This document shows, piece after piece, positions 4,223 through 63,586 of a DNA stretch of 64,000 bases; within the stretch, counting starts at the first letter, position 1; every line of letters begins with the position of its first letter. This stretch comes from a virus: IMG/VR virus record IMGVR_UViG_3300031823_000004, positions 17,341 to 81,340 of that record. The stretch is one strand, 5' to 3'. The translations under genes were made by a program, and so were the position numbers. The notes under the pieces were generated by a model that was given only the letters and a program-made list of their open reading frames with translations, was not told the origin of the DNA and ran no database searches.

Positions 4223-4597
4223 ATGTCAGATTTGGCCGCAAGTGGAGGCGGTGGCGCTGCCCCTAGCACAGTCATGGTTTCAGTTGGCGGTGGCGGCGGC
4301 AGTGCCGATAGTGGTGGAAGTGTCGGTGGTGGTGGCAGTGGCGGCGGCTGGGGTACTGGTGTCGTCGGTGGCGGGCCGCTGACTGCTACGCCATCGGCCG
4401 TGCCTGTTTCAACCCCAGTCACTCACGCTGACGCGGTGGCGGCGATCTTCACACGCCTGAATGCGCTCAGTGAAGCGACGGCGGCCGAGATTGCCAGTAT
4501 CAAGGCGGATGTCAGCAAGCTGCCGACACTGCTTGACCAGAACCTCGCAGCCGGGTTTGCGTCACTGCGCAGCAGCCTGACTGCGAAAAGCGGCTGA
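4223..4597 (+). CDS. Glycine-rich hypothetical protein
   Basis: A 124-residue protein. Residues 8-55 are almost pure Gly/Ser with Val, a flexible or polyglycine segment; residues 65-124 form a predicted amphipathic helix (AVAAIFTRLNALSEATAAEI) with heptad spacing. It follows the LLH-like gene by 14 bases with AGGAGA upstream. Nothing catalytic is visible. It may be a minor virion or membrane-associated protein; the function is unknown. Confidence 0.5.
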   Translation: MSDLAASGGGGAAPSTVMVSVGGGGGSADSGGSVGGGGSGGGWGTGVVGGGPLTATPSAVPVSTPVTHADAVAAIFTRLNALSEATAAEIASIKADVSKLPTLLDQNLAAGFASLRSSLTAKSG

Positions 4598-8074: not shown

Positions 8075-9832
8075 ATGGCAATCCCGGCGTGGTCCTGGCC
8101 TCCCTCGGGCGCGACTGCGCGCGGCACGACTCTCGTGCCCTTCGGCGCGGGCATGGCTGTACCGGACTGGACAAAACCCGTCCTGTGGCCGTTCTCCCTG
8201 AACGTGTTCCGCTCTGCAATCGCTATCGGCAGCGGCAGCTACGGCTTCGGCTCCGCAGCCCCTGATACGTCGGGTGGCGTGTACGCCACCACATGGGACG
8301 GTACGGTTCAGCACGTTACGTCCGGCAGCGTCATCACGTCCGGCGTGCTGCCGTCCGGACAGGTCTATGTCGGCACCGCCTATGCAGGTGGATCCGGCTT
8401 TGCCCTCGCCGCCACCGGCACAGTCTACGGCTCGGGCGGTGCCCTGGTAGGCACGTTCCCGCTCCCGGCGCGGCCCCTGGTATCGAGCGGCACCACCCTG
8501 ATGGCGCCCATGCCGTCATCCGGCGTTGGGCTGATGAACGCGAGCAACGGTGCCACCGGCTTCATCGCGCTGCCCGGAGGCATGACGACGATCTCCTGTA
8601 TCGCCGCGGCGTCCGGCGACCGGCTGGCGGTGGCCGGGTATTCCGTCGCGCCGTCGCTGTCCGGGATGGCTGCGGCCGCGCTCGATCCGCAGATCAACAC
8701 GTCGATGCTCGCGGTCGGATCGGGCCACGCGCTCCTGTGGGGTGCACCAGGACCGTACGCCGACGCGTGGGCGCAGACCCAGTCGGTCACCGGGCTCGCG
8801 AACCTGACGGCCGTGGCCTGGCGCCCGGACGGCACACAGGCGCTGGCGTGCAGCCCAGCGTCAGGCGCCGTGCAGGTGTTGGCGTACACGGCAGGCGTGG
8901 TGTCGCTCGCCCAGACCCTGACGGTGTCCGGGGCGTGCTCCGTGACGGTCGCCGGCGATTCGACCGATGCCCTGGTGGCGATGTCCGGCCAGTCACAGGC
9001 AGTACCGCTGACCTATGCGGGCAGCACGTGGTCGTCGGGCACCGCAATCACAGGCCTGTCCGGGATCGTCGCGGTTGCGCCGTACGGCGCGTCCGGCGCC
9101 GCCGTGGCGATGTCGGGAGCGGTGCAGTACTACAACCTGACACCGCCCGGGGCGTGGGCGTTCAGCGCGTCCGCCGCGATCGGCTTTGTGCCGACCGTCA
9201 TGGCGGTCGACCAGTTCAGCCAGGTCTATGTGGCGGGCAGCGGCGCGGTGGCCCTGGTGTCCGGCGCCGCAGTGGTCGCCAGCGGCACATGGGCAGGTGC
9301 CGCGCCGACGTCGATCATCGTGCAGCAGGGGCGCATCATACTGGCGATCCCCAGCGACAACCTGCTGCGGATCTTCGGGTACTCGGCGTCCGGCACACTG
9401 TCGCAGCAGAACAGCGTCGCCCTGTCGCTGGGCGCCCGTGTCGGACTCGGCCTGTCGTACACCACGCTGTTTGTCATGGGCTCCGGCAGCACGCCGCTGT
9501 ACGGCTTCTCCGGTTCACCGTACGCGCTGACACAACCTTTGTCCGGCTCGACAGCTTTGTGGACCGGCTCGGCTTGGGTAACTGGCGGGATGGGTGTTGG
9601 GCATATCCCATCGGCGATCGGGCTGGACGCATCCGGTGGAGTCTGGGTGGCGACGATACAGAACACCCTTTGGCACTTCACGTCCGGCGCGGTGCTGTCG
9701 TCGAGCGGGATTGTACAGCAGTTTTCCGGACAAGCGCAAACGTCACCAATATCTCCGTCTGCTATACTAACAACCACAAGCGGTGTTTTTGTCGCGACGA
9801 GCATTCCCGGCGTTATGGTTCAGGTGGCGTAG
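8075..9832 (+). CDS. Beta-propeller-like fibre or adhesin
   Basis: A 585-residue protein built from repeated four-strand-like units with motifs such as AVDQFSQVYVAGSGAVALVSG, GLDASGGVWVATIQNTLWHF and TTTSGVFVATSIPGVMVQV. The pattern D-x-x-G-x-V-Y/W-V-A resembles NHL or similar beta-propeller repeats. There are almost no Cys or Lys, and no catalytic motif. It stands just upstream of the baseplate genes, so a baseplate or fibre role is likely. The start at 8075 lacks a strong SD; Met27 (8153) is an alternative. The gene ends one base before the next ATG. Confidence 0.55.
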   Translation: MAIPAWSWPPSGATARGTTLVPFGAGMAVPDWTKPVLWPFSLNVFRSAIAIGSGSYGFGSAAPDTSGGVYATTWDGTVQHVTSGSVITSGVLPSGQVYVGTAYAGGSGFALAATGTVYGSGGALVGTFPLPARPLVSSGTTLMAPMPSSGVGLMNASNGATGFIALPGGMTTISCIAAASGDRLAVAGYSVAPSLSGMAAAALDPQINTSMLAVGSGHALLWGAPGPYADAWAQTQSVTGLANLTAVAWRPDGTQALACSPASGAVQVLAYTAGVVSLAQTLTVSGACSVTVAGDSTDALVAMSGQSQAVPLTYAGSTWSSGTAITGLSGIVAVAPYGASGAAVAMSGAVQYYNLTPPGAWAFSASAAIGFVPTVMAVDQFSQVYVAGSGAVALVSGAAVVASGTWAGAAPTSIIVQQGRIILAIPSDNLLRIFGYSASGTLSQQNSVALSLGARVGLGLSYTTLFVMGSGSTPLYGFSGSPYALTQPLSGSTALWTGSAWVTGGMGVGHIPSAIGLDASGGVWVATIQNTLWHFTSGAVLSSSGIVQQFSGQAQTSPISPSAILTTTSGVFVATSIPGVMVQVA

Positions 9833-9833
9833 C

Positions 9834-10493
9834 ATGGGTCAGATGTTCCGCACACTGCCGGTCGGTCTTGGGTCCATTCCGGCCTTGTATCAACTGTCAA
9901 TAAGGAGTCCCGGTCAGGTTTATAGTGAGATATCCACATACACGTTCCCGATCACGCCGTCGCAGTTGCGCATGGACTACTCGTCGCTTTCGTCGTTCAC
10001 CGACACACAGGGTCCGGTCATCAGCCGCGGTGTGACGCGGGTGATGGACGTTTACGGTCTCGCGCCGCCGGTCTACACGCTTGAAGGCACGACGGGATAT
10101 GACCGTCACATGAGCGATGGGTTTTTGCTGAACGGCGTGCAGTCGATGCAACTGCTTCAGCAGTTCCTGGCACAGTATGCCGTGCTGAACCAAGGACAGC
10201 GCGCAGCAGGCAACCCGCAACTCTACACGCTGGAATTTTATGACTATTACATGAACCAGTACTGGGTTGTGGAACCGGTCGGCCCGCAGGTGTTCAGGCA
10301 GGCAAACGATCGTCCGACCCTGATCTACTATCGCTTTCGGTGGGCTGCGGTCTACCCCGCTGGTGTTCCCGTGCTTGGCGAGATAGACGCATTGATGAAC
10401 CTGATCGCTACACCAGCCCAGCAAGCAGCGATCAATGCTGCTTCGACGCTGGGGGCGCTCCTCACTGCATACAGTCCTGGAGGCGTGATATGA
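9834..10493 (+). CDS. Putative baseplate or tail protein
   Basis: A 219-residue protein beginning MGQMFRTLPVGLGSIPALYQ, directly after the preceding TAG. The text LEFYDYYMNQYWVVEPVGPQ (about 140-159) followed by RPTLIYYRFRWAAV resembles phage tail proteins next to the gp25-like wedge in simple contractile tails, in which a beta-domain precedes a short helical C-terminus. It overlaps the next gene as ATGA, with TGGAGG for that gene inside its own 3' end, so the two are coupled. Its baseplate role is inferred from position with gp25-, J- and I-like genes. Confidence 0.5.
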   Translation: MGQMFRTLPVGLGSIPALYQLSIRSPGQVYSEISTYTFPITPSQLRMDYSSLSSFTDTQGPVISRGVTRVMDVYGLAPPVYTLEGTTGYDRHMSDGFLLNGVQSMQLLQQFLAQYAVLNQGQRAAGNPQLYTLEFYDYYMNQYWVVEPVGPQVFRQANDRPTLIYYRFRWAAVYPAGVPVLGEIDALMNLIATPAQQAAINAASTLGALLTAYSPGGVI

Positions 10494-11926
10494 GCGGCGG
10501 TTACGAACAACCGTTTGCAGGCTACCCTGGCCAGGTATTCTCGACCTGCTACCAAGCCGCCACGTGGCTTGCCAATCTGCTGGCCAGCGGTTCAGCGCCT
10601 GCCGCAACCGCGGCGCAAGGCGCCCTGTCGTGTTTCCAGACTTTTATGAACGGCGCCGATGCAGTGGCACTGTGGACAACCGCCAATGCACTTGCCCAGG
10701 AGACGATCAATCTCGCCGCCGTACAGGCGCTGCCGCTTGACCTGGATCCCGTCACGCAAACTTATTTCACGGCGCGCGTGGCCTCGGTAGCAGCAGCGGC
10801 CAGCGGACTCCTGGCACTGCCGCCGACAGCCAACCCGTTCAACGCAATCGCGTACCTCGGCGCCGGGCAGCCTGCTATTGCCGATACCGGCTATCTCGAA
10901 TGGTGCATGGGGTTCCAGGCCGAGACACCGCCGTCCGGACTTACGAGCGCGACCTTGACCACCTACGCCAGCGGCACCGCAACAGCGTGGCTGACGATAA
11001 CGAATGCAGTTCAGGTCGTGCAGGGCGCTACCCTGACCAACGCCTATGACGCCGCCGCCCGGCAGTTCCGCGTAGCGTCGACCGTGTCGAGTGGGCTGGC
11101 GGCACTGACGGCGTCCGGGTTCGCCCAGACGAACACGCTGGCACTCTGGAACGGCGTTGTCGCGATGCCGTCCCTACTGCTCGACGCCGCTTCGCTGATG
11201 TCAGCGCCAGCCTCGATCGCCAATCAGCAGGCGGCCGTCATCCGGTTCAAGCTGCGCAGCTTGGCCATCCAGGTCGCCTATTTCCTGCTGTCGCTGCGCG
11301 GCCAGGGCACCGGTAACGTGACGACCGCGGCGCTGCGGCAGAATGAGACGCTGATGGACCTGGCGGCCCGCGCCGCCGGCGGCTATGCGGCGTGGTCCAG
11401 CATCGCGTCGCTGAACGACGTGCAGCCGCCCTTCCCGGGTCCGGCGAACCAAGCCCTGGCGTCGTCCGGCACGCCGCTGTTGCTCCCTGGCAGCGTCGTG
11501 CCGCCCGCCGGTGCCACGCCGCCAACCTATGCGGCGAACGTACTCGGGGTGGACTACGATTTCGGGCCCATCAATGGACCGCAACCCGCGTGGCTTGGCG
11601 ATATCCAGCTTATCGCCGGTTACACGAACTATGCCCGGGCGCTGGGACGGCGGCTGCAAACCCCGCTCGGCACGCTGATCTATCATCCGGGCTACGGCAG
11701 CCGGATCCCGTACGAGATCGGCGCCGTGCAGGGGGTCGATGAGGCCTCCCGACTTGCAGCGTTCGGCGCTGCGGCATTAGCCGCCGATCCTCGTACGGCT
11801 AACGTGCTGTCTGCGGTGGCGACAGCGCAACCGGGGCGATTGGCGACATTCTCGGGCGCCGTTCTGCCGATCGGTCCGGGCGCTGTTCCTGTCGGCGTAA
11901 ACCAGGTGATTTCACCCCTGCCATAG
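10490..11926 (+). CDS. Baseplate wedge protein with C-terminal gp25-like domain
   Basis: A 478-residue protein. The last 110 residues read like a gp25/W-type wedge domain: the sequence YTNYARALGRRLQTPLGTLI then HPGYGSRIPYEIGA shows the L-x-T-x-x-G-x-L and Y-G-s-x-l signature. The first 370 residues are Ala/Thr-rich and helical with no known match, so the gp25 module is fused to a large N-terminal part; stand-alone gp25 proteins are about 110-150 residues. Start ATG 10490 has TGGAGG upstream and overlaps the previous stop. It should join the baseplate ring with the J-like protein that follows. Confidence 0.65.
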   Translation: MSGGYEQPFAGYPGQVFSTCYQAATWLANLLASGSAPAATAAQGALSCFQTFMNGADAVALWTTANALAQETINLAAVQALPLDLDPVTQTYFTARVASVAAAASGLLALPPTANPFNAIAYLGAGQPAIADTGYLEWCMGFQAETPPSGLTSATLTTYASGTATAWLTITNAVQVVQGATLTNAYDAAARQFRVASTVSSGLAALTASGFAQTNTLALWNGVVAMPSLLLDAASLMSAPASIANQQAAVIRFKLRSLAIQVAYFLLSLRGQGTGNVTTAALRQNETLMDLAARAAGGYAAWSSIASLNDVQPPFPGPANQALASSGTPLLLPGSVVPPAGATPPTYAANVLGVDYDFGPINGPQPAWLGDIQLIAGYTNYARALGRRLQTPLGTLIYHPGYGSRIPYEIGAVQGVDEASRLAAFGAAALAADPRTANVLSAVATAQPGRLATFSGAVLPIGPGAVPVGVNQVISPLP

Positions 11927-13770: not shown

Positions 13771-16700
13771 CCTCGGACAGCAAGGCTATCTTCTGGCATC
13801 CGGTCCTCACGGGACCTGGCCACCCATAACGTCGCCTGGATCGCGGCGCCATCCACCACCGTATGTGCCGCCACCGCCACCACCGATAACCATTCAGTCG
13901 GTCACGCTGTCGAACGCGTCTTTTGTCAGCGGCACAAGCAACGCCACAGTCGGCACCATAAACGTGGCGATGAATATCGGTTCGTTTACCGGATCACTGT
14001 CGCTGTCCGGCACGAACGCGTCAAGTTTCCAGATTGTCGGAAACACACTGGAGACTGTCGGCAGCCTGTCTGCCGGAACGTACTCGATCGTCATCACCGC
14101 CACGCAAGGCAGCGCGGTAAACTCGCCTGTCTCTACATCGCCACTGACCATTACAGGCAGCGCGGCTGCGCCAGCTTTCTCGTCCATCACGCTGTCAAAC
14201 AACACGTTCATCGACACCACGGCGAACGCGACCGTCGGCACCATAGCGGTGACGATGACCAATGGCGCATTCAGCGGAACTCTGGCGGTCGGCGGCACGA
14301 ATGCAGCCGATTTCCAGATAGTCGGCACAACTCTGGAAACCATCGGCACCCTTGCCGGCGGAACGTACTCGATCGTCATTACCGGCACGCAGGCCGGTGC
14401 GTCGAACTCGCCGTTTTCCACGTCACCGCTGACGATCACCGGTGCTGCGGCGCCGCCACCACCGCTGTCGTTCCAGTCCATCACGCTGTCAAACAACACG
14501 TTCGTCGACACCGTGAACAACGCGACGGTCGGCACGATCTCTGTGGTGATGAATGGTGGCACGTTCAGCGGCACGCTGTCGCTGTCGGGCACGAACGCGT
14601 CCAGCTTCCGCATCGTCGGAACCACCCTGCAAACCTTCGGCGTTCTCCCCGCCGGAACGTACTCGGTCATCATCACCGGCACGCAATCCGGCGCGTCCAA
14701 TTCGCCGTTCTCCACCCTGGCCCAGACGATCACCGGCAGCGCGGCCGCGGCCGCGGCTACGACGTGGAACCCGTCTGACCAGTCCGGCATGACGCTGTCC
14801 AACGGCAACCTGACGGCGACAACGAACAGCGCGGCGCAGGCTGGCGTTCGCTCGACGTCCGCCATGCCAGGCGTGCCAAGCTATTTCGAAATCACCCTGA
14901 CAACCTCTGGCTCCAGTGAAGTCGTCGGTATCGCGGACTCCTCGTGGGTGGAGACAGCCGCTGCCGGGCTGGGCGGCGACAACAATGGCATAGGCCTGCT
15001 GGAAACCGGTGCGGTCCATCTGAACAACGTCGCGGTCGGGTCCGCCATGCCAGCCTGGACCGCAGCAACGGTGCTGGGCGTCGCTGTCAACCCCACCACG
15101 AAAAAGATATTCTTCACCTATAACGGAACCACATGGGATGCCACCGGATCCGGCGACAACCCAGCGACGAATACCGGCGGCTATTCGTGGGCCACTGCGG
15201 TGTCCGGATCCTATTTCATCGCCTTCGGTGCGCTGGGCTCCTCCGTGACCAGCGGTGTGTCGGGCAGTCAGAACAGCGGTGCGTCACAGCCCGTCGTAAG
15301 CGGCCCGGCGACCGCGACAGTCGGTGTCAGCACCACGCTGGCGATTACCGGGCTGACCCTTTCCGACACCAATCAGCCGCTGGGCGGCACCTGTGCATTG
15401 AATGTGGACTGCACGTCCGGCATCTGCACGCTGAACACAGTGGTCACGGGCGGATCGGCTACCGGCAACGGTACCAACTCAATATCGGTATCGGATACCT
15501 TCCCCAACTGCCAAACCGACATCGCGTCGCTGACCTATACCGCGTCATCGTCTACCGGCACTGATTCTATTTTCGTGCAGTTGTGGGACCAGCTAGGCCT
15601 GAACAATTCGATCAATATCGCGGTCACCATAGAAGCAGGCAGCGTCGGCATCAAAGTGCTGAATGCTGGCGAACAGACGTTTGCCTACACGGTTCCATCC
15701 GGCTATACGGCGTGGGATAGCTTCGCCCCAGCACCGCCGACCAATCTGACCGGCGCAGCAGGCAGCACGTCAGTTGCACTTACCTGGACAGCATCTGCTG
15801 TCGGCACTGCACCGCTCACATACACGGTGCAGAACAGGATTACCGGCAGTTCCACTTGGGCCAACGTCGTAACTGGGCTGACCACAGAATCGTATAACGT
15901 CACCGGTCTGACGACCCGCACCTCGTACGATTTCCAGGTGATCGCCGTCAACGCGCTTGGCAACGCTGTCACGCCTTTTATCACCGTTGCCACGACAGCC
16001 GCAGGCAATGTCGTCGGCGACGCAACCGGCACACAGGCTGGCCGCATTGCCGATTTCCTGGAAACCATCGGCGTCAACGGGTTCTTTAACAATCAGGACG
16101 GCGCCATCGGTTACAACGATTATCCCAACACGCCGACCAACGCCCAGATAGCTGCGGGCTATGTGACCGGGTTGCAGTACCTCACGGCCAATACCGGCAT
16201 GGGATTGACCTGCCGCATCTACACAGACGGCACCAGTACGACGACCGAGAACGACCAGGTCAACATCTGCACCATCATCCAGGCGTCCATGCCGAATGTC
16301 AGGTGGACGTCGTGCTGGAGTTGGACCAACGCCGCCACACAGGCTGTCGTCAGCGGGCTCATATCCGCAGGCATCCTGGCTTTTGCTGAAGGCGTGAACG
16401 AGCCCAATCCCGGCGGCAACACGAACGAGCCGGTTGCCGACTGCCTCACGCAGCAAGCGTTTGTCTGGAGCACCTGGAACGCAACCCAGCCGGTCGCCGC
16501 TCCATCGTGCGTCGATAACGGATCGAACACCTATGCGGCCGACTACTATGGCAGCAACCTGTCGACAGTGGCGGGTGAATGCACACTATGGAACGGCCAC
16601 AACTATCCGAACGGCGGCGCACCGTCCAACGACATCTACCGCCGCACCCTGATGATCGGCTCGAATATCGGCTTCCCTGCCAACGGCGTGGTCACCGAGT

Positions 16701-17338
16701 TTCATCCGCTGCTGTACAACACCTCGGCGGCACAGTCTGCGGGTGAGACCATCAGCGGCTACTATCTCGCTTGCGCGTGGCTGGCAGGCTATATGTACTA
16801 CAACGTCAAGGCGCTGATCTGGTTCGACATGTTCGATTACCAGTACAACGCGACGTCACCGCCTTTTGCCTATCCGGTCGGATTTTTCAATCAGTACAAT
16901 TCGAGTTCGCCGCGCAACGCGGCGATCGTGGTTCATAATTTCTTCCTGTTCTGCACTGACGCGGCCACGACACGCCATACCTTCACGCCGGGCAAACTGA
17001 ACTACACCCTCAGTGGCCTGCCAGCGAAGTGGACGGGTAGCTTTGGCGGCGTGACCAGTACCCAGGCCTCCGGTGGCGGCCAGTCGGCGCTGTTCCAGGG
17101 CTCCAACGGAATACTGTATCTGTTCATCTGGAACGAACAAAACGCGCTCGCTCTCGGCACCACGACAACCGTCACCGTGACGTTTAATGACGAGGCAATG
17201 ACCAAGGTGGTAGACTACAGCCTGACCAATCCGGCCGGGACGGCAAACCCGGCGCCTATCCAGACCCTGACCAACGTGACTACAGTGACGATGCATCTTA
17301 CCACCGAGGTTCGCGTGCTGGTCATCACCTACCCGTAG
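13757..17338 (+). CDS. Large tail fibre with C-terminal glycoside hydrolase (clan A-like)
   Basis: An 1193-residue multidomain fibre. After a Pro-rich start come three near-identical beta-sandwich repeats (about 46-132, 135-228, 232-325; each SITLSNNTFxDT...NATVGTI...GTNAxxFxIVGTTLET), a SPRY-like domain (about 336-510), a beta domain, a fibronectin type III domain (about 655-750) and a TIM-barrel-like hydrolase (760-1193). In the latter, GVNEPNPGG gives the acid/base Glu882 and GVVTEFHPLLYN the nucleophile Glu981, the NEP...E layout of clan GH-A. It probably binds and trims host polysaccharide. The start is a TTG with a weak SD inside the I-like gene; no better one is seen. Confidence 0.75.
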   Translation: MSQINLGQQGYLLASGPHGTWPPITSPGSRRHPPPYVPPPPPPITIQSVTLSNASFVSGTSNATVGTINVAMNIGSFTGSLSLSGTNASSFQIVGNTLETVGSLSAGTYSIVITATQGSAVNSPVSTSPLTITGSAAAPAFSSITLSNNTFIDTTANATVGTIAVTMTNGAFSGTLAVGGTNAADFQIVGTTLETIGTLAGGTYSIVITGTQAGASNSPFSTSPLTITGAAAPPPPLSFQSITLSNNTFVDTVNNATVGTISVVMNGGTFSGTLSLSGTNASSFRIVGTTLQTFGVLPAGTYSVIITGTQSGASNSPFSTLAQTITGSAAAAAATTWNPSDQSGMTLSNGNLTATTNSAAQAGVRSTSAMPGVPSYFEITLTTSGSSEVVGIADSSWVETAAAGLGGDNNGIGLLETGAVHLNNVAVGSAMPAWTAATVLGVAVNPTTKKIFFTYNGTTWDATGSGDNPATNTGGYSWATAVSGSYFIAFGALGSSVTSGVSGSQNSGASQPVVSGPATATVGVSTTLAITGLTLSDTNQPLGGTCALNVDCTSGICTLNTVVTGGSATGNGTNSISVSDTFPNCQTDIASLTYTASSSTGTDSIFVQLWDQLGLNNSINIAVTIEAGSVGIKVLNAGEQTFAYTVPSGYTAWDSFAPAPPTNLTGAAGSTSVALTWTASAVGTAPLTYTVQNRITGSSTWANVVTGLTTESYNVTGLTTRTSYDFQVIAVNALGNAVTPFITVATTAAGNVVGDATGTQAGRIADFLETIGVNGFFNNQDGAIGYNDYPNTPTNAQIAAGYVTGLQYLTANTGMGLTCRIYTDGTSTTTENDQVNICTIIQASMPNVRWTSCWSWTNAATQAVVSGLISAGILAFAEGVNEPNPGGNTNEPVADCLTQQAFVWSTWNATQPVAAPSCVDNGSNTYAADYYGSNLSTVAGECTLWNGHNYPNGGAPSNDIYRRTLMIGSNIGFPANGVVTEFHPLLYNTSAAQSAGETISGYYLACAWLAGYMYYNVKALIWFDMFDYQYNATSPPFAYPVGFFNQYNSSSPRNAAIVVHNFFLFCTDAATTRHTFTPGKLNYTLSGLPAKWTGSFGGVTSTQASGGGQSALFQGSNGILYLFIWNEQNALALGTTTTVTVTFNDEAMTKVVDYSLTNPAGTANPAPIQTLTNVTTVTMHLTTEVRVLVITYP
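13880..14745 (+). repeat. Three tandem domain-length repeats in the fibre gene
   Basis: Three direct repeats of about 280-290 bases encode the triplicated beta-sandwich of the fibre. The DNA copies are strongly alike (for example CTGTCAAACAACACGTTC at about 14191 and 14487, and GCCGGAACGTACTCG at 14071 and 14657), pointing to recent duplication or gene conversion. Confidence 0.75.
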
Positions 17339-24821: not shown

Positions 24822-25352
24822 TTAAGCAGTCAAGCCGATCGTCCCGGCCGCCGCACCAGCCGAGGCTATCGCGGATGCAACGCTGATCGCGTTTTCACCG
24901 GTGTTCAGGACACTCACGCCGACGTTGTTCAGCACGTCCATCGCAAGGAACGAGTAGGTGTCGCGCACCGGCGCATTTGCCGGTATTGACTCGGCGAAAT
25001 TCTGGCACTTGCAATCGACATAGGTGAACACAACGGTTTGCGTCAGGCCGTCGTACACGTGGAAATCGAAGACGTTCCCCGCCAGGATGTAGTTCAGATT
25101 CTGGCCGCCCTGGAGCAAATTGACCCCCTGCACCGTGAGCGCAAAGGTATCGAGATTGATCTGCGGCGAGACGCGAAGCTGCTGGACTTCCTGCGGCAGC
25201 GCCGATCCGATGCCGTAAAGCTGTTCGGTGCCGAACGGGAACTGATGGCCTGTCGTCTGGGCAAAAAAGATGACCTGATCGCCGAGCATCGCGGCGACCT
25301 GGTTACCGTTACGGACGTTATTCTTGACGACTTGCGGTGTGAAACCCGGCAT
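24822..25352 (-). CDS. Tail tube protein
   Basis: A 176-residue beta-rich protein directly downstream of the sheath gene, the standard tube position. It starts MPGFTPQVVKNNVRNGNQVA and contains alternating strand segments (GDQVIFFAQTTGHQFPFGTE; VVFTYVDCKCQNFAESIPAN) ending in an Ala/Gly/Ser tail. Its size is typical of contractile-tail inner tubes. The identification rests mainly on order (sheath, tube, chaperone, tape measure) and size. Confidence 0.7.
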   Translation of the reverse strand: MPGFTPQVVKNNVRNGNQVAAMLGDQVIFFAQTTGHQFPFGTEQLYGIGSALPQEVQQLRVSPQINLDTFALTVQGVNLLQGGQNLNYILAGNVFDFHVYDGLTQTVVFTYVDCKCQNFAESIPANAPVRDTYSFLAMDVLNNVGVSVLNTGENAISVASAIASAGAAAGTIGLTA

Positions 25353-42159: not shown

Positions 42160-42258
42160 CGGAATACGATTGCAAAAAAGCGGCTGTCCGCCTATGCAGA
42201 GCGCACGGCTTCGGCCGCTCGTGGGGTCGTCGAGTAGCGCATCCGGCGGCAACCACCG

Positions 42259-42288
42259 CCCCTGTGACCCGGATCCAGGTCACAGGGG
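42259..42288. promoter_or_regulatory. Palindromic operator candidate
   Basis: An 11-bp inverted repeat, CCCCTGTGACC (42259-42269) and GGTCACAGGGG (42278-42288), separated by eight bases, in the gap between the leftward protease gene and the rightward gene at 42312. No T-run follows it, so an operator is more likely than a terminator. Confidence 0.4.
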
Positions 42289-42311
42289 AGTACCTCCAGG
42301 GAGTAGCAGCT

Positions 42312-42653
42312 ATGGGCCTCGGCATCGTAACAGCATCCAACTGCTTCAGCGAACCTGTCATACAGCGTTCCCTGCCGCCGGAGCATCGGATCCTTGGCGT
42401 CAAAGCCGGTCCGCACTGCACCGACTACCTGATCGAAGGACCGTTGATGCCAACCGCCGAACCGGCGGAAAACGTGTCGCTTCTGTTCACGATGAACCAG
42501 CGCGACAACCGATTTTACCTCACTGGACAGGTAACCTACCCTCGCAGCCCGGTATCCACCAGTTGGGCTATCGGCGACTGGCCGTCGATGGCTGCTTACC
42601 AAAAGGAAATCGAATACTTAAACCGTAAAGCTGAAGTCGCTTTTATAAGCTGA
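42312..42653 (+). CDS. Hypothetical protein on opposite strand to late operon
   Basis: A 113-residue protein on the plus strand within the leftward operon. Sequence: MGLGIVTASNCFSEPVIQRS, then ILGVKAGPHCTDYLIEGPLM and FTMNQRDNRFYLTGQVTYP, consistent with a small mixed fold with two Cys. GGGAG lies eight bases before ATG 42312; an earlier GTG at 42264 lies inside the palindrome and is less likely. With the next gene it makes a two-gene rightward pair next to the palindrome at 42259-42288, which could regulate it. Function unknown. Confidence 0.45.
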   Translation: MGLGIVTASNCFSEPVIQRSLPPEHRILGVKAGPHCTDYLIEGPLMPTAEPAENVSLLFTMNQRDNRFYLTGQVTYPRSPVSTSWAIGDWPSMAAYQKEIEYLNRKAEVAFIS

Positions 42654-55595: not shown

Positions 55596-55786
55596 GAGGG
55601 CCACCAACTCACCGCTTCGAACGTCCAGCCGCGCGTGAACGAATGCGTGTGGACAGCCTGGACATGCCACCCTTCGAACTGCCGCAGGATCGGCGCCGCC
55701 TGGACCACTATGTCATCCCGCGCGACGAGCCCGGCGCAGAACGGCCGGGCTCCATCGGCAGTCAGCCGGTAAAGCGCCTCGGTCAC
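55568..55786 (-). CDS. Hypothetical protein
   Basis: A 72-residue protein (MTEALYRLTADGARPFCAGL, VARDDIVVQAAPILRQFEGW, HVQAVHTHSFTRGWTFEAV) with a tidy beta-beta-helix rhythm common in small tailed-phage proteins of unknown role. It overlaps the 70-residue gene upstream by four bases and its 3' end overlaps the start of the amber-containing ORF. The 17-bp repeat shared with the noncoding region at 58494 lies at its 3' end. Confidence 0.5.
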   Translation of the reverse strand: MTEALYRLTADGARPFCAGLVARDDIVVQAAPILRQFEGWHVQAVHTHSFTRGWTFEAVSWWPSCKNTTLFC

Positions 55787-55995
55787 CAGTGTCCTTTGAA
55801 CACGTGCGACAGGTCGATGAAGCCATCGGGCAGGGCCGCTTCCTTGGGCTTTTTCTCTTTGCCCTCGCGCTTCAGATCGTTCGACTCGTCCGCCAGGCGA
55901 TGCGCCGTGCGGCCGGACATACCGTGCTCGCGGGCGATCGACGGGTCATGGTCGGCCGCATTGAACAGCTTCCGCTGTTTCTCGGTAAACGGCAT
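55783..55995 (-). CDS. Small basic phage protein
   Basis: A 70-residue highly charged protein beginning MPFTEKQRKLFNAADHDPSI, then AREHGMSGRTAHRLADESND and a Lys-rich segment LKREGKEKKPKEA. This is a common small tailed-phage protein family of unknown function, often next to packaging genes. It may bind nucleic acid because of its charge. It overlaps the next gene by four bases and starts three bases after the coiled-coil gene's stop. Confidence 0.6.
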   Translation of the reverse strand: MPFTEKQRKLFNAADHDPSIAREHGMSGRTAHRLADESNDLKREGKEKKPKEAALPDGFIDLSHVFKGHW

Positions 55996-58249: not shown

Positions 58250-58358
58250 GACAATTCCCCTTTCGCCGGATGCGTGTAAACGGTGTTGTGCCTGCTGTCA
58301 AGCGAAATAGTTGTATCCGCAGGGGAGGGTTGTCGCGGGGGTTACTATTAGACTGTTA

Positions 58359-58484
58359 TATGCAACTATTATAGTTCTTGCAGCGTATTTTTCTGAAGCA
58401 GTCGTTTATGCAACTAAGGACGTTTTCAGAGTAGCGCGCAACAGCATTGGCTGTTTCAGCAGAATACGTACTGTTATGCAACTA
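58359..58484. repeat. Iteron-like TATGCAACTA repeats
   Basis: Three exact 10-bp copies at 58359-58368, 58407-58416 and 58475-58484 (same direction), spaced 48 and 68 bases. The first and third share more flank (ACTGTTA before, TATAGT after), making each nearly palindromic. A binding site for an initiator or regulator is likely. Confidence 0.5.
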
Positions 58485-58678
58485 TAGTAAAAGCAGAGTG
58501 GTATTTTTGCGCGGGGGTAGGCCGGTCCTCAAGCCGCCCGAACGTCCGCGCCCCCACCTCCCGCCCCCGTAACGATACGAGCTGCCATTGAAATAAATCG
58601 TGAGCGCCTGACGCTTGATTGTTTCAGTGCGCCGGCGTTTGTTTCAGCGCCTATCACGTATTGTTTCAGCCTGGCGCG

Positions 58679-58899
<221 letters not shown>

Positions 58900-58935
58900 G
58901 CGGTCGACCTGCTAGGGCATGTCCCAGATACGACT

Positions 58936-58983: not shown

Positions 58984-59181
58984 CTAGTCGAGTAGTTCAG
59001 CATTGAGCGCGTTGCACTGGACCGTAAAATATTCGTCTTCGCTGATCTCTAGTCCGTCCAATGTGTACACAACATACGATACGAATCCGTGTCCGTTGTC
59101 AGCGACTCGGTATGTCGCATGAATAGACAGCATGGGCGAGACAGGAATCGCATAGACTGCGTTAGCGCAATTGATTGCCAT
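58984..59181 (-). CDS. Small early-type hypothetical protein
   Basis: A 65-residue protein (MAINCANAVYAIPVSPMLSI, HATYRVADNGHGFVSYVVYT, LDGLEISEDEYFTVQ...) of beta-rich character. AAAGGAAC precedes the ATG. Its leader (promoter 59222-59250, then AGCAG...AAAGGAACTCGG) closely resembles that of the next gene, a duplicated control unit. Its short size and strong dedicated promoter suggest an early host-directed or regulatory protein; function unknown. Confidence 0.55.
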   Translation of the reverse strand: MAINCANAVYAIPVSPMLSIHATYRVADNGHGFVSYVVYTLDGLEISEDEYFTVQCNALNAELLD

Positions 59182-59221
59182 AACCGAGTTCCTTTCCGGA
59201 CTGCGTTGCGTAGCAGTCCGG

Positions 59222-59250
59222 TATGTAGTGACAGCGCATACGCTTGTCAA
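59222..59250 (-). promoter_or_regulatory. Early promoter/operator module 1
   Basis: Leftward: TTGACA (59245-59250), 17-base spacer, TACATA (59222-59227). The spacer and -10 hold the palindrome arms GTATG and CATAC around GTCAC. Drives 58984-59181. Confidence 0.65.
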
Positions 59251-59256
59251 GCTGGA

Positions 59257-59733
59257 TTAGCGGCGCAGTCCCAGGAAATTGCGCCGCACATATCCCTTGA
59301 GTCCGTCGACCCTGATACGCGTTGCTGTCCAGGACTCGAATTGAGTCGGCGCGGTCCGGTCCGGCTGTACGATCTCACTGCGGTCGACGTCAAAATGGCC
59401 ATAAGCTACCATCGCATACGCAAGACACATTTTATGGGCGAGCGTACCCTTGCGGTATGTGCGGCGCCCATTATCGTCAATGTCACCATTCGGCAAATAG
59501 CTTGCGCCAATGGCCGACAGTGCGGATTGTTCGCGCGCGTGGGACTGATCCGCTTTGTCTGGCATAGATACGGTCAACTCTTCGATCATAACGGCACTCG
59601 TAAATCCGCACGCAGAGTCCAGGTCTTCGACTCGCACTGCGGTAACGTAACCATGTCGCAATTCAGAAAAGTCAAAAAAGATTCCGCCATATTCAAGATT
59701 GACGTCACCTTGATAGTACCAACGAGTCGCCAT
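59257..59733 (-). CDS. Early-type hypothetical protein
   Basis: A 158-residue protein (MATRWYYQGDVNLEYGGIFF ...). It has a beta-rich N-terminal part (ELRHGYVTAVRVEDLDSA) and a helical middle (HAREQSALSAIGASYLPNGD; GTLAHKMCLAYAMVAYGHFD), ending in basic LKGYVRRNFLGLRR. It is downstream of promoter module 2 and an AAAGGAAC SD. No family recognised; an early takeover function is possible. Confidence 0.55.
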   Translation of the reverse strand: MATRWYYQGDVNLEYGGIFFDFSELRHGYVTAVRVEDLDSACGFTSAVMIEELTVSMPDKADQSHAREQSALSAIGASYLPNGDIDDNGRRTYRKGTLAHKMCLAYAMVAYGHFDVDRSEIVQPDRTAPTQFESWTATRIRVDGLKGYVRRNFLGLRR

Positions 59734-59770
59734 TGCCGAGTTCCTTTCTGCTAGGGCGTTCCGTATGCCC

Positions 59771-59799
59771 TATGTAGTGACAGCATAGGGCATTGTCAA
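59771..59799 (-). promoter_or_regulatory. Early promoter/operator module 2
   Basis: Leftward: TTGACA (59794-59799), 17-base spacer, TACATA (59771-59776). Strong palindrome TGCCCTATG-N9-CATAGGGCA covers the spacer and -10. Drives 59257-59733. Confidence 0.7.
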
Positions 59800-59809
59800 C
59801 AGGAAAGCG

Positions 59810-60046
59810 CTAGACCATAGACCATTCGATCTCTTCGAAGACGTCCGGCTTATCGTCGACCGGTACCGGAGCGTATGTGGGCAATCGCCTTGCGCTATCC
59901 TCCCGCTCCCGCTTGACGCGTTCGCGTTCCTTAATCCAGTCTATGACAGCGGGAGTCGGCATTTCTGCAATCGGCTCTCCTGTACCGCGCCATCCCAGCT
60001 TGCCGTTGTTACGCGGGAAGATTATTACGTTGCCCACTTGTTTCAC
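59810..60046 (-). CDS. Early-type small hypothetical protein
   Basis: A 78-residue charged protein (GNVIIFPRNNGKLGWRGTGE; WIKERERVKREREDSARRLP). A GTG at 60046 is used; a second GTG at 60037 has GGAG at a better distance (ten bases) and may be the real start. The helical Arg/Glu middle could be a coiled coil or RNA-binding region. Promoter module 3 lies about 85 bases upstream. Function unknown. Confidence 0.5.
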   Translation of the reverse strand: MKQVGNVIIFPRNNGKLGWRGTGEPIAEMPTPAVIDWIKERERVKREREDSARRLPTYAPVPVDDKPDVFEEIEWSMV

Positions 60047-60131
60047 TCCGGTTAGAGAAAGCGGGAGAGCGAATCAGCTAAGGGTACCGCCCTGTGGTCA
60101 GTAGCCAACTAGGTGTTCGCTCTCAATGCCC

Positions 60132-60160
60132 TATATAGTGACGATATAGGGAATTGTCAA
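60132..60160 (-). promoter_or_regulatory. Early promoter/operator module 3
   Basis: Leftward: TTGACA (60155-60160), 17-base spacer, TATATA (60132-60137). Palindrome CCCTATAT-N7-ATATAGGG overlaps the spacer and -10. Drives 59810-60046. It faces away from module 4, so 60130-60246 is the divergence point of the early genes. Confidence 0.7.
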
Positions 60161-60217
60161 TCATCGACCTGTGGCCAAGTTTCACAATAATGTTATCAGC
60201 TATATTCTACTGCTTGC

Positions 60218-60246
60218 TTGACAAGGCTATGTAGCGACGATACATA
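60218..60246 (+). promoter_or_regulatory. Early promoter/operator module 4
   Basis: Rightward: TTGACA (60218-60223), 17-base spacer, TACATA (60241-60246), with palindrome CTATGTA-N7-TACATAG. Drives the 58-residue ORF at 60277. Confidence 0.65.
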
Positions 60247-60276
60247 GATCGCACGAAAGCAGAGAGGGACACTATC

Positions 60277-60453
60277 ATGATAAGAGTATCTCCCGCACTC
60301 GCGACAGACGCCTATCATGTACTTGCGAGTGCTGATCCGGCGGACCTGTCACCTGCCGAGGTGGTCGTACTCACGATTGTGAGTATGGTGGACGTTGTTA
60401 CGCGTGGCGACTATAAGACCGCGCGCAACATAATCCGCCAGTTCACGCGCTAA
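60277..60453 (+). CDS. 58-residue early protein
   Basis: A short ORF (MIRVSPALATDAYHVLASAD, PADLSPAEVVVLTIVSMVDV, VTRGDYKTARNIIRQFTR) with AGAGAGGG at a good distance and promoter module 4 upstream. It reads as a small helical bundle. It is the first gene of the rightward early unit, where antirepressors and host inhibitors often lie. No family recognised. Confidence 0.55.
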   Translation: MIRVSPALATDAYHVLASADPADLSPAEVVVLTIVSMVDVVTRGDYKTARNIIRQFTR

Positions 60454-60457
60454 AGTG

Positions 60458-60473
60458 CCACACTATAGTGTGG
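60458..60473. promoter_or_regulatory. Perfect 16-bp palindrome, operator candidate
   Basis: CCACACTATAGTGTGG has no loop, so it is a DNA-binding site rather than a hairpin. It lies between the 58-residue ORF and the zinc-ribbon gene, 27 bases before the ATG used for the latter. Confidence 0.5.
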
Positions 60474-60499
60474 AAACCATGAACGAAAGGGCAACAGCT

Positions 60500-61048
60500 A
60501 TGACGGAAGTATCAGAAATGCGCGTTTGCCCGGCTTGCAAGGGTACAAAAGTGCGCATAACGGAAGCCTGGACCTATCACGAGCGTGATGCGAATGGAGT
60601 TGCCACAGGGCGCACAAAAGACTATGCACGCCGGGTCGACCCGTGCTACGCTTGCGACAGCAAGGGGGAGTTCCCTAAGCCGGACGTTGCTGCGATCATC
60701 GAGGCAATCCGCGGGAGAGGCGGAAAAGGTCTCCGGAGCAAGCGTCCTGATAACCGCCGCGCCTATTACGTCTGGCGTCTCGCCCGTTTTCATGGTGGGG
60801 CCGACGTGACAATGCCAATGACGGCCACGATGGATAATAGTTCTGATCCGTGGCTGAAAGAACTGGACTCACTCGCTGACGCGGTCGCCCGCCGCGTGTT
60901 TGGAACTGACCTAGCGGCCGCGAATCGTTGGGGTAATGCGCTAGGTTACCTGGACCGGAATCTACCTGGATTGCCGGATTCAGCATATAGCGGCGGAAGA
61001 GTCGCCGATTCCGATAAACCCATCGAAGAAAGTGCGGAACTCACATAA
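60500..61048 (+). CDS. DnaJ-like zinc-ribbon protein
   Basis: A 182-residue protein with two CxxCxGxx-like knuckles, VCPACKGTKVR (about 8-18) and PCYACDSKGEF (about 47-57), a zinc ribbon as in DnaJ, followed by a helical C-terminal domain (WLKELDSLADAVARRVFGTD; LAAANRWGNALGYLDRNLPG). It has AAAGGG nine bases before the ATG at 60500 (earlier starts 60455 GTG and 60479 ATG are possible). It may bind protein or nucleic acid; nothing shows a J domain. Confidence 0.55.
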   Translation: MTEVSEMRVCPACKGTKVRITEAWTYHERDANGVATGRTKDYARRVDPCYACDSKGEFPKPDVAAIIEAIRGRGGKGLRSKRPDNRRAYYVWRLARFHGGADVTMPMTATMDNSSDPWLKELDSLADAVARRVFGTDLAAANRWGNALGYLDRNLPGLPDSAYSGGRVADSDKPIEESAELT

Positions 61049-61060
61049 ATCCGCAATGTA

Positions 61061-61109
61061 GTTGCTTGACAATTCCCTATCGCGTCAGTATATAGGGATT
61101 GTCAAGCAA
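61061..61109 (+). promoter_or_regulatory. Early promoter/operator module 5 in a long inverted repeat
   Basis: TTGACA (61066-61071), 17-base spacer, TATATA (61089-61094). The whole element is a near-perfect inverted repeat: GTTGCTTGACAATTCCCTAT (61061-61080) against ATAGGGATTGTCAAGCAAC (61091-61109), with one bulged base. Drives 61132-61608. Confidence 0.7.
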
Positions 61110-61131
61110 CGTCAGGACAGGGGCAAAAACG

Positions 61132-61608
61132 ATGGCATACTCAATTCGTTACGCGTCATTTGGCACAGTGTCGCACGCCACGCTCCGGAGCGAAGACTTG
61201 CTTGACGCGTTCGCCACGGAACTCGACTATCAGCTAAAGCGGCAGGTAAAGCGCTTCCCGCGCAAAGCCCATCGCAAATTGATCCGCGAGGCAAATGCGA
61301 TAGTCAACGCCACCTCGCGCGAGGAAGAATGGGCTTCTGAACTCGTTTCCGATTTGCAAGATGCATTGAATGACTTCGCGCCACCCTACGCCTACTTTGG
61401 CACAACGGAAGGTGACGGATCGGACTTTGGTTACTGGATCAGCGCCGACTCAATCGAGGACAATTTTGACGGCTTGAAGGTCGACGATACGTCGGCCGTA
61501 CCGCCTGATTATCGTGGCGAAGTGTTGCACGTAAACAATCATGGAAACATGACGCTCTATGTCGCAGCAAGCCACGGCAAATTGCGGGAAATTTGGGCCG
61601 TCGTTTAA
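61132..61608 (+). CDS. Early-type hypothetical protein
   Basis: A 158-residue protein (MAYSIRYASFGTVSHATLRS ...). A basic helical N-terminal half (DYQLKRQVKRFPRKAHRKLI) is followed by acidic segments (REEEWASELVSDLQDALNDF) and a beta part (YFGTTEGDGSDFGYWISADS). AGGGG precedes the ATG; promoter module 5 is about 40 bases upstream. No family recognised. Confidence 0.55.
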   Translation: MAYSIRYASFGTVSHATLRSEDLLDAFATELDYQLKRQVKRFPRKAHRKLIREANAIVNATSREEEWASELVSDLQDALNDFAPPYAYFGTTEGDGSDFGYWISADSIEDNFDGLKVDDTSAVPPDYRGEVLHVNNHGNMTLYVAASHGKLREIWAVV

Positions 61609-61628
61609 TCCGCCGCAGTCTGGACCCT

Positions 61629-61657
61629 AGCGGTCGACCGTCAACAGGTCGACCGCT
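61629..61657 (+). terminator. GC hairpin with SalI-type arms
   Basis: AGCGGTCGACC (61629-61639) and GGTCGACCGCT (61647-61657) form an 11-bp stem with a seven-base loop between two early genes. There is no T-run, so it may be an RNA-processing site or weak terminator. Confidence 0.35.
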
Positions 61658-61687
61658 CTAGCCTGAATTGCGAGAGGATACCCCAAC

Positions 61688-61873
61688 ATGAACGCCCGAG
61701 AATGGATTGCTGCGGTCGACCGTCACTTGCAGCGCCCAATGCGCACATACGAACAACGCTATTGCGCGCGTATGTTCGAACCCGAAAACACGGACGATAC
61801 AGCCCGCATCGTAGCGGATCTGTTGCGCCAGAACGACGCAACTCCCGCGCAAAGCATATTCAAGGAGTCCTGA
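61688..61873 (+). CDS. Small hypothetical protein
   Basis: A 61-residue helical protein (MNAREWIAAVDRHLQRPMRT, YEQRYCARMFEPENTDDTAR). AGAGGA lies about ten bases before the ATG. It is the first of a run of five closely spaced genes with two-base gaps or overlaps. Function unknown. Confidence 0.5.
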   Translation: MNAREWIAAVDRHLQRPMRTYEQRYCARMFEPENTDDTARIVADLLRQNDATPAQSIFKES

Positions 61874-61874
61874 C

Positions 61875-62135
61875 ATGGCACGACACTATTACCGGGTTTA
61901 CATAGGTCGACCGCACTATGAAGCGGAGCGCACCACATTGGCGCGCGAGGCGGAAGCCCGCCGCTATGCTGTCGCGGGCGCGGAAGCAAACTACATTGTT
62001 GACGCATACAGCGAACAGGACGCGATAAAGTGCGCCGCAATGGCGCAACGCGGGCAATGTCTCGTTTGGCATTGCGGGCCTCGCAAGGCTGTACCGGTCA
62101 TGATTCCTAATGTCGAGTTCACCGGGAGTTTTTGA
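61875..62135 (+). CDS. Small hypothetical protein
   Basis: An 86-residue protein (MARHYYRVYIGRPHYEAERT, TLAREAEARRYAVAGAEANY) with a helical basic part and a C-terminal strand (WHCGPRKAVPVMIPNVEFTG). AAGGAG precedes the ATG. Only one base separates it from the previous stop. No family recognised. Confidence 0.5.
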   Translation: MARHYYRVYIGRPHYEAERTTLAREAEARRYAVAGAEANYIVDAYSEQDAIKCAAMAQRGQCLVWHCGPRKAVPVMIPNVEFTGSF

Positions 62136-62136
62136 T

Positions 62137-62361
62137 ATGGCACAGAACCCGCCGAACCCGCCGAACCCGCCGAACATGAGCGCAACGCATTTGCGAACCG
62201 GCAAATGGGCCGTGCGACCGGCTGGTCAGCTTGGCACTTGCGGGTGGTACCCAAAACCCTGGACCGTGGTCTATGTCTCGGCAAGCAGCGAGGCGGAAGC
62301 CTTGCGCAAAGCCGCGCCTCTCCTCCCGCACAGTTTAACGGAAGAGGAGCGCATGGCATGA
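62137..62361 (+). CDS. Small hypothetical protein with NPP repeats
   Basis: A 74-residue protein beginning MAQNPPNPPNPPN, where three 9-bp DNA repeats encode NPP units, then a compact domain (GKWAVRPAGQLGTCGWYPKP, VYVSASSEAEALRKAAPLLP). GGGAG precedes the ATG. Its stop overlaps the next start as ATGA. Function unknown. Confidence 0.5.
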   Translation: MAQNPPNPPNPPNMSATHLRTGKWAVRPAGQLGTCGWYPKPWTVVYVSASSEAEALRKAAPLLPHSLTEEERMA

Positions 62362-62543
62362 CCTGCGACCGCACATATGACAGCGTCATTGCTGCGACCT
62401 GCTACGGCGCGACCGTCTATTGGCGCGAGGGAATCGGATGGGTCGACGATAGGCGCAACGCCCATTTGTTTTGTGAACGCGATCGGCTACCACGCCTGGC
62501 CGATGGCGTAACGAATATCCGTTTCGAAAAGGTGACGCCATGA
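62358..62543 (+). CDS. Small hypothetical protein
   Basis: A 61-residue protein (MTCDRTYDSVIAATCYGATV, YWREGIGWVDDRRNAHLFCE) with three Cys and a short beta pattern. Four-base overlaps join it to both neighbours, so it is probably translated by coupling. No family recognised. Confidence 0.5.
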   Translation: MTCDRTYDSVIAATCYGATVYWREGIGWVDDRRNAHLFCERDRLPRLADGVTNIRFEKVTP

Positions 62544-63253
62544 ACCCGCCGGACTACGGAACCTTTCAGGCTGCATTGCGCGAGCGTTCTTACCTGGACT
62601 CGCTCTATCAGCAAAAAATGAGCGATCTGCAATCGGCCTTTGAATCCGCAATCATCGCAGGCTATCGGAGCCTGTATCCCAAACGCAAGGCGAAGGACTG
62701 GCGCGCGGCGCTGCATACCCTTGATCCCGAGGGCCAGGTTTTCCGCAAGCCTTGGGACGATGCCGCGGAAAGCCTCTCCCGCGAGCGCCGGAAGGCACTG
62801 GATGGCGCGGAGGAAGCGCTATGGGTTGCCGCTGCTGGCCTCCCGCTGCCCGCCAGCGAGGCGCTACGCCCGCCGCTTTATGCCGAGTTCCCGGCGCATC
62901 ACTACTGGACAATGGGATACAGCGCCTGCACCTATGCGAAAGCCGCCGCGAACCGGCTCGCCGATAAAGCCCGCGCGCACGGTCGACCTGCCGAGGTGCA
63001 TGAGATCGAACGTCATAGAGTGCATGGCCGTGGCTGGAGTCAGGAACACGCAACGTATGGCGTTTTCATAGATACCGACCGGCTAGGCTGGGAAATCCTG
63101 CAACGCAAGCCCGTCGCAAGTATGCGGGAACTCGTACGCATGGCGTGGAAACAAGGCGTTAACCCACGGGTTATGTGGCCGTTCCTCCCGCACGGTTTCG
63201 AGGAAGAGAACGGGCTGGACTTTTTCGGAAACGAGACCTGGAAAACCGCTTGA
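62540..63253 (+). CDS. Early-type hypothetical protein
   Basis: A 237-residue protein. Residues 1-100 are helical and charged (ERSYLDSLYQQKMSDLQSAF; KAKDWRAALHTLDPEGQVFR); the rest is mixed with many aromatic residues (FPAHHYWTMGYSACTYAKAA; MWPFLPHGFEEENGLDFFGN). It is the largest early gene in view and carries promoter module 6 at its 3' end. No motif is recognised that would assign a reaction. Confidence 0.5.
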   Translation: MNPPDYGTFQAALRERSYLDSLYQQKMSDLQSAFESAIIAGYRSLYPKRKAKDWRAALHTLDPEGQVFRKPWDDAAESLSRERRKALDGAEEALWVAAAGLPLPASEALRPPLYAEFPAHHYWTMGYSACTYAKAAANRLADKARAHGRPAEVHEIERHRVHGRGWSQEHATYGVFIDTDRLGWEILQRKPVASMRELVRMAWKQGVNPRVMWPFLPHGFEEENGLDFFGNETWKTA

Positions 63254-63278
63254 CAATTCCATATATCGTCACTATATA
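63250..63278 (+). promoter_or_regulatory. Early promoter/operator module 6
   Basis: TTGACA (63250-63255), 17-base spacer, TATATA (63273-63278), with arms ATATAT and TATATAGG around CGTCAC. It overlaps the stop of the preceding gene and drives 63305-63586. Confidence 0.7.
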
Positions 63279-63304
63279 GGGAAACAGACGGAAGGAACAA
63301 ACCA

Positions 63305-63586
63305 ATGACACTTGATGGCATGACGTCCGATATATGGGACAAGCTGACTCCAGGCGAGCGCGAGCGCTTGCGCGACAATTCAGGCTTGACCAGGGAGTTG
63401 CTTGGCCTTGAAGGCTGGCGGGTTGAAGTACGCGACACGCCCGAAGCAAAGCCGCGCCGCTTCATCGTCGGCCGGTCGACCGGCTGGCGACCGATCCACA
63501 TTGAGGTGCTGACGCGCCGTTCGCTTGGCGGTTGCGCTTGCAACGCCAGCTATGCGTCAGTGCGCAAAATCGAAAGGGTGCGATAG
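63305..63586 (+). CDS. Small hypothetical protein
   Basis: A 93-residue protein (MTLDGMTSDIWDKLTPGERE, RLRDNSGLTRELLGLEGWRV) with a helical start and a beta-rich end (RFIVGRSTGWRPIHIEVLTR, RSLGGCACNASYASVRKIE). AAGGAAC precedes the ATG. Function unknown. Confidence 0.5.
   Translation: MTLDGMTSDIWDKLTPGERERLRDNSGLTRELLGLEGWRVEVRDTPEAKPRRFIVGRSTGWRPIHIEVLTRRSLGGCACNASYASVRKIERVR

Follow-up and report, generated by a model that had tools for sequence, protein, structure and literature searches.

Six promoters with a common putative operator over the -10 element in the early block of a contractile-tailed phage

The stretch analysed here (the window, 64,000 nucleotides) covers bases 17,341-81,340 of the 81,340-base IMG/VR virus record IMGVR_UViG_3300031823_000004, so that the end of the window is also the contig end. 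The record, referred to below as G000, contains major capsid, portal, terminase, tail sheath and baseplate genes, which mark the phage as contractile-tailed; the other end of the record carries DNA polymerase, helicase and exonuclease genes and a fragment of a ribonucleotide reductase (RNR) gene. It is incomplete: its start falls inside the RNR gene, and about 15 kb between the window end and the reductase gene are unassembled, as judged against a 94-kb relative. In a near-DNA search, none of 50,697 phage records matched. Here we describe six promoter modules located among small early open reading frames (ORFs), each overlapped by a palindrome that we propose to be the operator of a single regulator. 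The preliminary description of this DNA had already placed six such promoters, and all are found, with a spacer of exactly 17 bases in every case, at 59222, 59771 and 60132 on the minus strand and at 60218, 61066 and 63250 on the plus strand:

59221..59250, minus strand: module 1, TTGACA (59250-59245), N17, TACATA (59227-59222); operator dyad at about 59221-59241, with the weakest arms; ORF start at 59181, 41 nt past the -10, with the Shine-Dalgarno sequence AAGGAA
59762..59799, minus strand: module 2, TTGACA (59799-59794), N17, TACATA (59776-59771); palindrome ATGCCCTATG-N9-CATAGGGCAT, 9/11 pairs; ORF start at 59733
60129..60160, minus strand: module 3, TTGACA (60160-60155), N17, TATATA (60137-60132); the best palindrome, CCCTATAT-N7-ATATAGGG at 60129-60151, 10/11 pairs; ORF start GTG at 60046 or 60037
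60218..60247, plus strand: module 4, TTGACA-N17-TACATA, divergent from module 3; palindrome CTATGTA-N7-TACATAG at 60227-60247, operator centre reversed; ORF start at 60277
61061..61110, plus strand: module 5, TTGACA (61066-61071), N17, TATATA (61089-61094), the promoter being enclosed by a longer inverted repeat, GTTGCTTGACAATTCC / GGGATTGTCAAGCAAC; ORF start at 61132
63250..63282, plus strand: module 6, TTGACA-N17-TATATA; operator at 63259-63279; ORF start at 63305

All six modules point into an ORF, whose start codon lies 27-95 nt beyond the -10, and the record stops 700 bases beyond the last of them. Modules 6 and 3 are 97% complementary across 32 nt. The window has exactly six occurrences of TTGACA-N17-TAYATA, against none in 100 dinucleotide shuffles; when up to two mismatches are allowed, there are 8 matches against a mean of 1.96 expected and a shuffle maximum of 7. 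With a weight matrix of the promoter and the downstream arm, run over the whole record, the six sites score 57.2-38.7, while overlapping or reverse-strand readings of the same sites reach 28.6 and the next match only 17.8. A scan with the dyad alone, leaving out the -35, also returned only these six above the control in the record. The possibility that the motif recurs at random across the late genes, raised in advance as a ground for refutation, was thus checked with both scans, and the motif is not there. We consider it very likely that the modules are promoters.

We then looked at the relatives of this phage, which were retrieved by a capsid search and are given G-numbers here. They comprise the near-complete IMG/VR phages G007 (94,109 bases) and G009 (105,740 bases), the fragments G005, G006 (27.6 kb) and G008, and more distant phages. 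Among G000, G007 and G009, the late genes and the replication genes are colinear. The same module is present at six sites in G007, two in G009 and one in G006, and the dyad-only scan adds 38714 (minus), 40856 (plus) and 45809 (minus) in G009, where the -35 is shifted or weak, and 25176 (plus) in G006. As in the window, these sites lie in the interval bounded by the replication genes and by the terminase side of the late genes, and a divergent pair is found in each of the three larger genomes (60132 minus/60218 plus in G000, 60189 minus/60412 plus in G007 and 38714 minus/38782 plus in G009). The genes driven by these promoters are unalike when compared within each phage, and the downstream genes differ between phages; only two early ORFs of the window have a homologue among the relatives, both in G010. 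Judged from these comparisons, the conserved item is the switch and not its cargo. In the more distant G010 and G012-G022 nothing rose above control level. A single similar site in G023 was not taken as proof, a few chance matches being expected in a collection of that size.

The anatomy of the dyad is best described by columns, column 1 being the first T of TTGACA. The profile of the 15 best sites from the window and the relatives reads TTGACA, N6, A/C-T-R-T at columns 12-15, Y18 G19 W20 C21 R22 C23 and TAYAYA at 24-29; C occupies column 23 in 13/15 sites and G occupies column 30 in 12/15. When the set is widened to 20 sites, the common core reads T-R-T-N2-Y-G-W-C-R-C, followed without a gap by TAYAYA. 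The symmetry centre common to all copies is column 20, near -16, one base before the centre implied in the preliminary description. None of 1000 column-permuted spacers reaches the observed symmetry, whether for G000 alone, for the relatives alone or for all sites, and purine-pyrimidine complementarity is seen in 18-20 of the 20 sites at pairs 13/27, 14/26, 15/25, 18/22 and 19/21. The palindrome first noticed over the spacer and the -10 is real, with 9 or 10 of 11 pairs matched in four window sites, but only 7/11 match at 61066 and at 59222, where the arms are degenerate. The centre is GTCAC at four sites and GTCAG at 61066, while 60218 shows TCGTC from the other strand, its dyad centre being displaced by one base.

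The putative operator spans -26 to -6, and the distance from the -10 to a start codon preceded by a Shine-Dalgarno sequence is 26-41 nt in 16/20 sites. The site at 38714 (minus) in G009 has the best dyad of its genome (27.1) despite a -35 of TAGACA at spacing 18, which indicates that the dyad has a fixed position relative to the -10 and is maintained separately from the -35; two other sites have 16-base spacers. That the dyad stays with the -10 where the -35 drifts favours an operator for a repressor over a mere promoter motif.

The -10 of the modules reads CTATAT and not TATAAT. GcrA is a cell-cycle regulator family of alphaproteobacteria, and a GcrA homologue is encoded by G009; together with the type of -10, this makes an alphaproteobacterial host likely. 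A search of bacterial genomes with the major capsid protein returned one contig, from an Acidiphilium metagenome-assembled genome, which is weak host evidence. The σ70 consensus of Sinorhizobium meliloti, CTTGAC-N17-CTATAT (PMC2873474), resembles the modules in the -35, the spacer and C-TATAT, TTGAC at 17-base spacing from a CTATAT-like -10 being seen in 6/6 window modules, but contains neither the dyad nor the YGWCR element.

An operator that occupies -26 to -6 in a consensus promoter has the textbook position for repression by exclusion of the polymerase. We consider it probable that the early block is governed by such an operator-repressor mechanism. In this model, the host RNA polymerase with σ70 would transcribe the whole early block at once upon infection; a phage helix-turn-helix (HTH) repressor, probably expressed from one of the six promoters, would accumulate, and its dimer would bind every operator, block the -10 and close the block in step by negative feedback. 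Protein binding, repression and the identity of the repressor are all inferred from sequence. The preliminary description had proposed one repressor or activator for the whole block. The idea of one DNA-binding protein is the best supported, because the dyad is promoter-specific, holds a fixed place at the -10 and is retained by syntenic relatives before unrelated genes; the choice it left between two modes of action falls on repression, which is much likelier since these promoters match the consensus and have the operator lying over their -10 and spacer, whereas activation is unlikely given the perfect -35 and the 17-base spacing.

It had also been stated that no obvious candidate gene for the regulator is adjacent, which is true of the window. 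In both near-complete relatives, a gene for a protein of 113-128 aa with two HTH units lies inside the block, beside an operator. In G009, this gene (bases 42,223-42,564, 113 aa) ends 3 bases before the operator at 42567 (plus), and its product combines HTH_31 (E 2.4e-11) and HTH_3 (E 2e-8) matches with an N-terminal HTH, which itself has a weak Pfam KORA match (E 1.9e-4); its predicted model shows two HTH units (mean pLDDT 72). The G007 protein (128 aa, HTH_31 E 5e-7) is 47% identical to that of G009, and its gene ends at 62,350, overlapping the start of the operator at 62340 (plus). As the G007 gene comes after small genes downstream of the operator-bearing promoter at 61254 (plus), this position would give autoregulation. 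An IMG/VR scan with the candidate pair gave matches only in G007 and G009, and none was found among INPHARED phages. We tentatively propose this two-HTH protein as the best candidate for the regulator. The second candidate, a YdaS/Cro-like protein whose gene neighbours the replication genes in both G007 and G009, matches PHROG_35, 'transcriptional repressor' (E 6e-5 and 9e-5).

Three other proteins were dropped. A clade-conserved 70-aa protein of the window (55783-55995) has only a weak match to a virion-protein family. The other two are each in one phage only and so do not qualify as a common regulator: a stand-alone Trans_reg_C winged-helix DNA-binding protein in G007 (1049-1492, E 3.2e-10) and the GcrA homologue of G009 (16695-17165, PF07750, E 1.3e-13).

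Several observations weigh against a phage-encoded repressor acting on these sites. No HTH regulator was found in the 81-kb record, PHROG and Pfam having been run on the ORFs of the window, an absence that is excusable only because the roughly 15 kb next to the block are missing. G007 and G009 are related to each other, so that the co-occurrence of regulator and operator counts as a single evolutionary observation. In addition, several sites of the relatives have weak outer arms (per-site p 0.05-0.65), and left and right halves change without covariation (8/15 at pair 14/26, counted by eye); a lack of exact covariation is to be expected where a site accepts either base.

The conserved bases might instead reflect recognition by RNA polymerase and nothing else, a strong alphaproteobacterial σ70 promoter with a conserved spacer having been duplicated in the phage, with the palindrome as a by-product of TATA-like repeats. 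This is unlikely. The perfect -35, the exact spacing of 17 and the C before TATATA fit the S. meliloti promoter (PMC2873474), and the GcrA homologue of G009 suggests a matching host, but TRT (columns 13-15) and YGWCR (columns 18-22) lie outside that consensus and pair by dyad symmetry with the -10 side, the dyad survives where the -35 is poor, and none of 385 alphaproteobacterial genomes contains the full promoter-operator pattern, which is not what a general host promoter would show. The same survey of 385 genomes argues against operators that answer a host-encoded transcription factor, used by the phage as a cue; the single similar site in G023, which shares few genes, and the failure to identify a regulator in the window record would fit such a factor, but a phage regulator candidate sits in the block of the relatives, and we regard this explanation as the least probable of those considered.

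Mobile promoter-leader cassettes kept alike by recombination, with any regulator secondary, would account for the copying of promoter, leader and Shine-Dalgarno sequence within genomes (in G007, and at 59222 and 59771 in the window) and for downstream genes that differ between phages. The promoter-terminator cassettes (PeSLs) of T4-like phages (PMC4503421), for which such upkeep by recombination has been proposed, are a parallel, as they are also repeated early-promoter cassettes within a gene-shuffling early region; the window modules differ by the absence of a terminator stem-loop, none being detected at any site, and by symmetry over the -10 itself. Moreover, the sequence between the conserved columns has diverged while the dyad columns are retained. 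The cassette explanation thus accounts for the spread and not for the dyad, and is compatible with the repressor; as a replacement for it, it is rather improbable. Maintenance of lysogeny, with a CI-type repressor silencing the early promoters in a prophage, appears slightly more doubtful still. Many repressor sites are dispersed at early-region promoters in Streptomyces phage phiC31 (the conserved inverted repeats, CIRs) and in P1 (the C1 operators), where they serve lysogeny in temperate phages. The scattered operators and the repressor-like phage protein resemble these temperate systems, by description only, and distant relatives carry serine or tyrosine recombinases; however, no tyrosine or serine integrase (PF00589, PF00239) was found in G000 (incomplete), G007 or G009, the phage brings its own DNA polymerase, helicase and RNR, and a relative turned up in only one bacterial-genome contig. 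Plasmid-type lysogeny may still apply.

Returning to the repressor model, an operator regulon spread over several promoters is of a known kind, and the family in the window is new, in an uncharacterised phage clade. KorA of the IncP-1 plasmid RK2 is a small HTH repressor that controls several promoters in concert and is autoregulated. Its operator overlaps the -10 of korAp (PMC2680271), and the likeness extends to the short palindrome over the -10 and to the weakly KORA-like candidate of G009; the KorA operator TTTAGCTAAA itself, however, gives 0 window matches at up to one mismatch, and here the setting is a phage early block. The SAS/ESAS elements of cluster K mycobacteriophages recur ahead of many small genes and contain an inverted repeat (PMC3203893). 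They are likewise conserved in relatives before different genes, but SAS is linked to translation starts while the window element is locked to the promoter, and the 13-bp SAS GGGATAGGAGCCC gives 3 window matches at two mismatches against 1.33 expected (chance level), none near the modules.

The early ORFs of the block are the following:

58987..59181, minus strand: 65 aa, no family match; leader GAAAGGAACTCGG in common with the next ORF
59257..59733, minus strand: 158 aa, no family match
59810..60046, minus strand: 78 aa, no family match; long structured leader
60277..60453, plus strand: 58 aa, no family match
60500..61048, plus strand: zinc-ribbon-like start (CxxC...CxxC), HTH not detected; located just before an operator, where the relatives have their regulator gene
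61132..61608, plus strand: 158 aa, PHROG_29605 (E 2e-7)
63305..63586, plus strand: 93 aa, PHROG_10759 (E 1.7e-16), function unknown

The leaders are unstructured in five of the six modules. That of module 3 (60064-60124, minus strand), the sole long early one, forms a strong hairpin, GAGAGCGAA...UUCGCUCUC (z -3.4), possibly a translational or attenuation element. Leaders are partly common to copies at 59222/59771 in the window and at 63076/64050 and 60189/60412/61254 in G007. In G023, the leader GGAGCCCTCTAGGCGGCTCTACATACGGAGTAACCGACATG precedes three small genes (at about 9955-9998, 11040-11083 and 11334-11377) and includes a stem-loop and the GGAGTAACCG leader of G007.

If the operators act as proposed, early genes that were unrecognisable become a defined regulon with a consensus site and a named candidate regulator. 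The operator could then serve as a tag marking, in phages without close references, unknown genes that are expressed first and switched off together; early co-regulated genes are the usual place of host-takeover and anti-defence genes. G010 provides a contrast: it has an orthologue (55% identical) of the window early gene at 61132, without the promoter of module 5, and none of these operators. We observed there (4236-4319, 5970-6053 and 8664-8708) a repeated promoter-leader cassette before three early genes, with a palindrome TGTAAC-N8-GTTACA (one copy with one change) that overlaps a TACAGT/TACACT-type -10, the -35 (TTGCTA) being weak. This arrangement matches that of the window modules, with another sequence. 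G010 also encodes an HTH_3 protein, at 84,678-84,848. This suggests, from one phage and with a weak -35, that operator specificity has been replaced as a set; if true, the contrast of G000-type with G010-type operators would show early-repression specificity changing as a whole. It is conceivable, though we think it unlikely, that in these apparently integrase-less myoviruses lineage-specific operators changed in step in all copies, together with their regulator, so that a resident phage silences the early genes of its kin, which would amount to an immunity-like superinfection block without lysogeny.

When six further relatives were searched de novo for repeated palindromes, only one pair rose above control, in the late region of G012: identical, oppositely oriented copies of GGGACTTATATAGATAACTCCC at 31969 and 32357 amid late genes, one of which makes TTGACA-N17-TAGATA. 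An early product of G007 (63138-64034) is built of many NASVSGDARVFG-type repeats and resembles a repetitive beta-helix-like protein. Finally, late and early genes of the window are separated by an AT-rich gap (58340-58900) with three copies of TATGCAACTAT (58359, 58407 and 58475) and three of TTGTTTCAG, about 20 apart, followed by tandem repeats of CGAGCA (x7.8) and TGGCCCTG. These iteron-like repeats are possibly a replication origin. Simple repeats are also present in G006 (24829-25136), near the place matching this gap.

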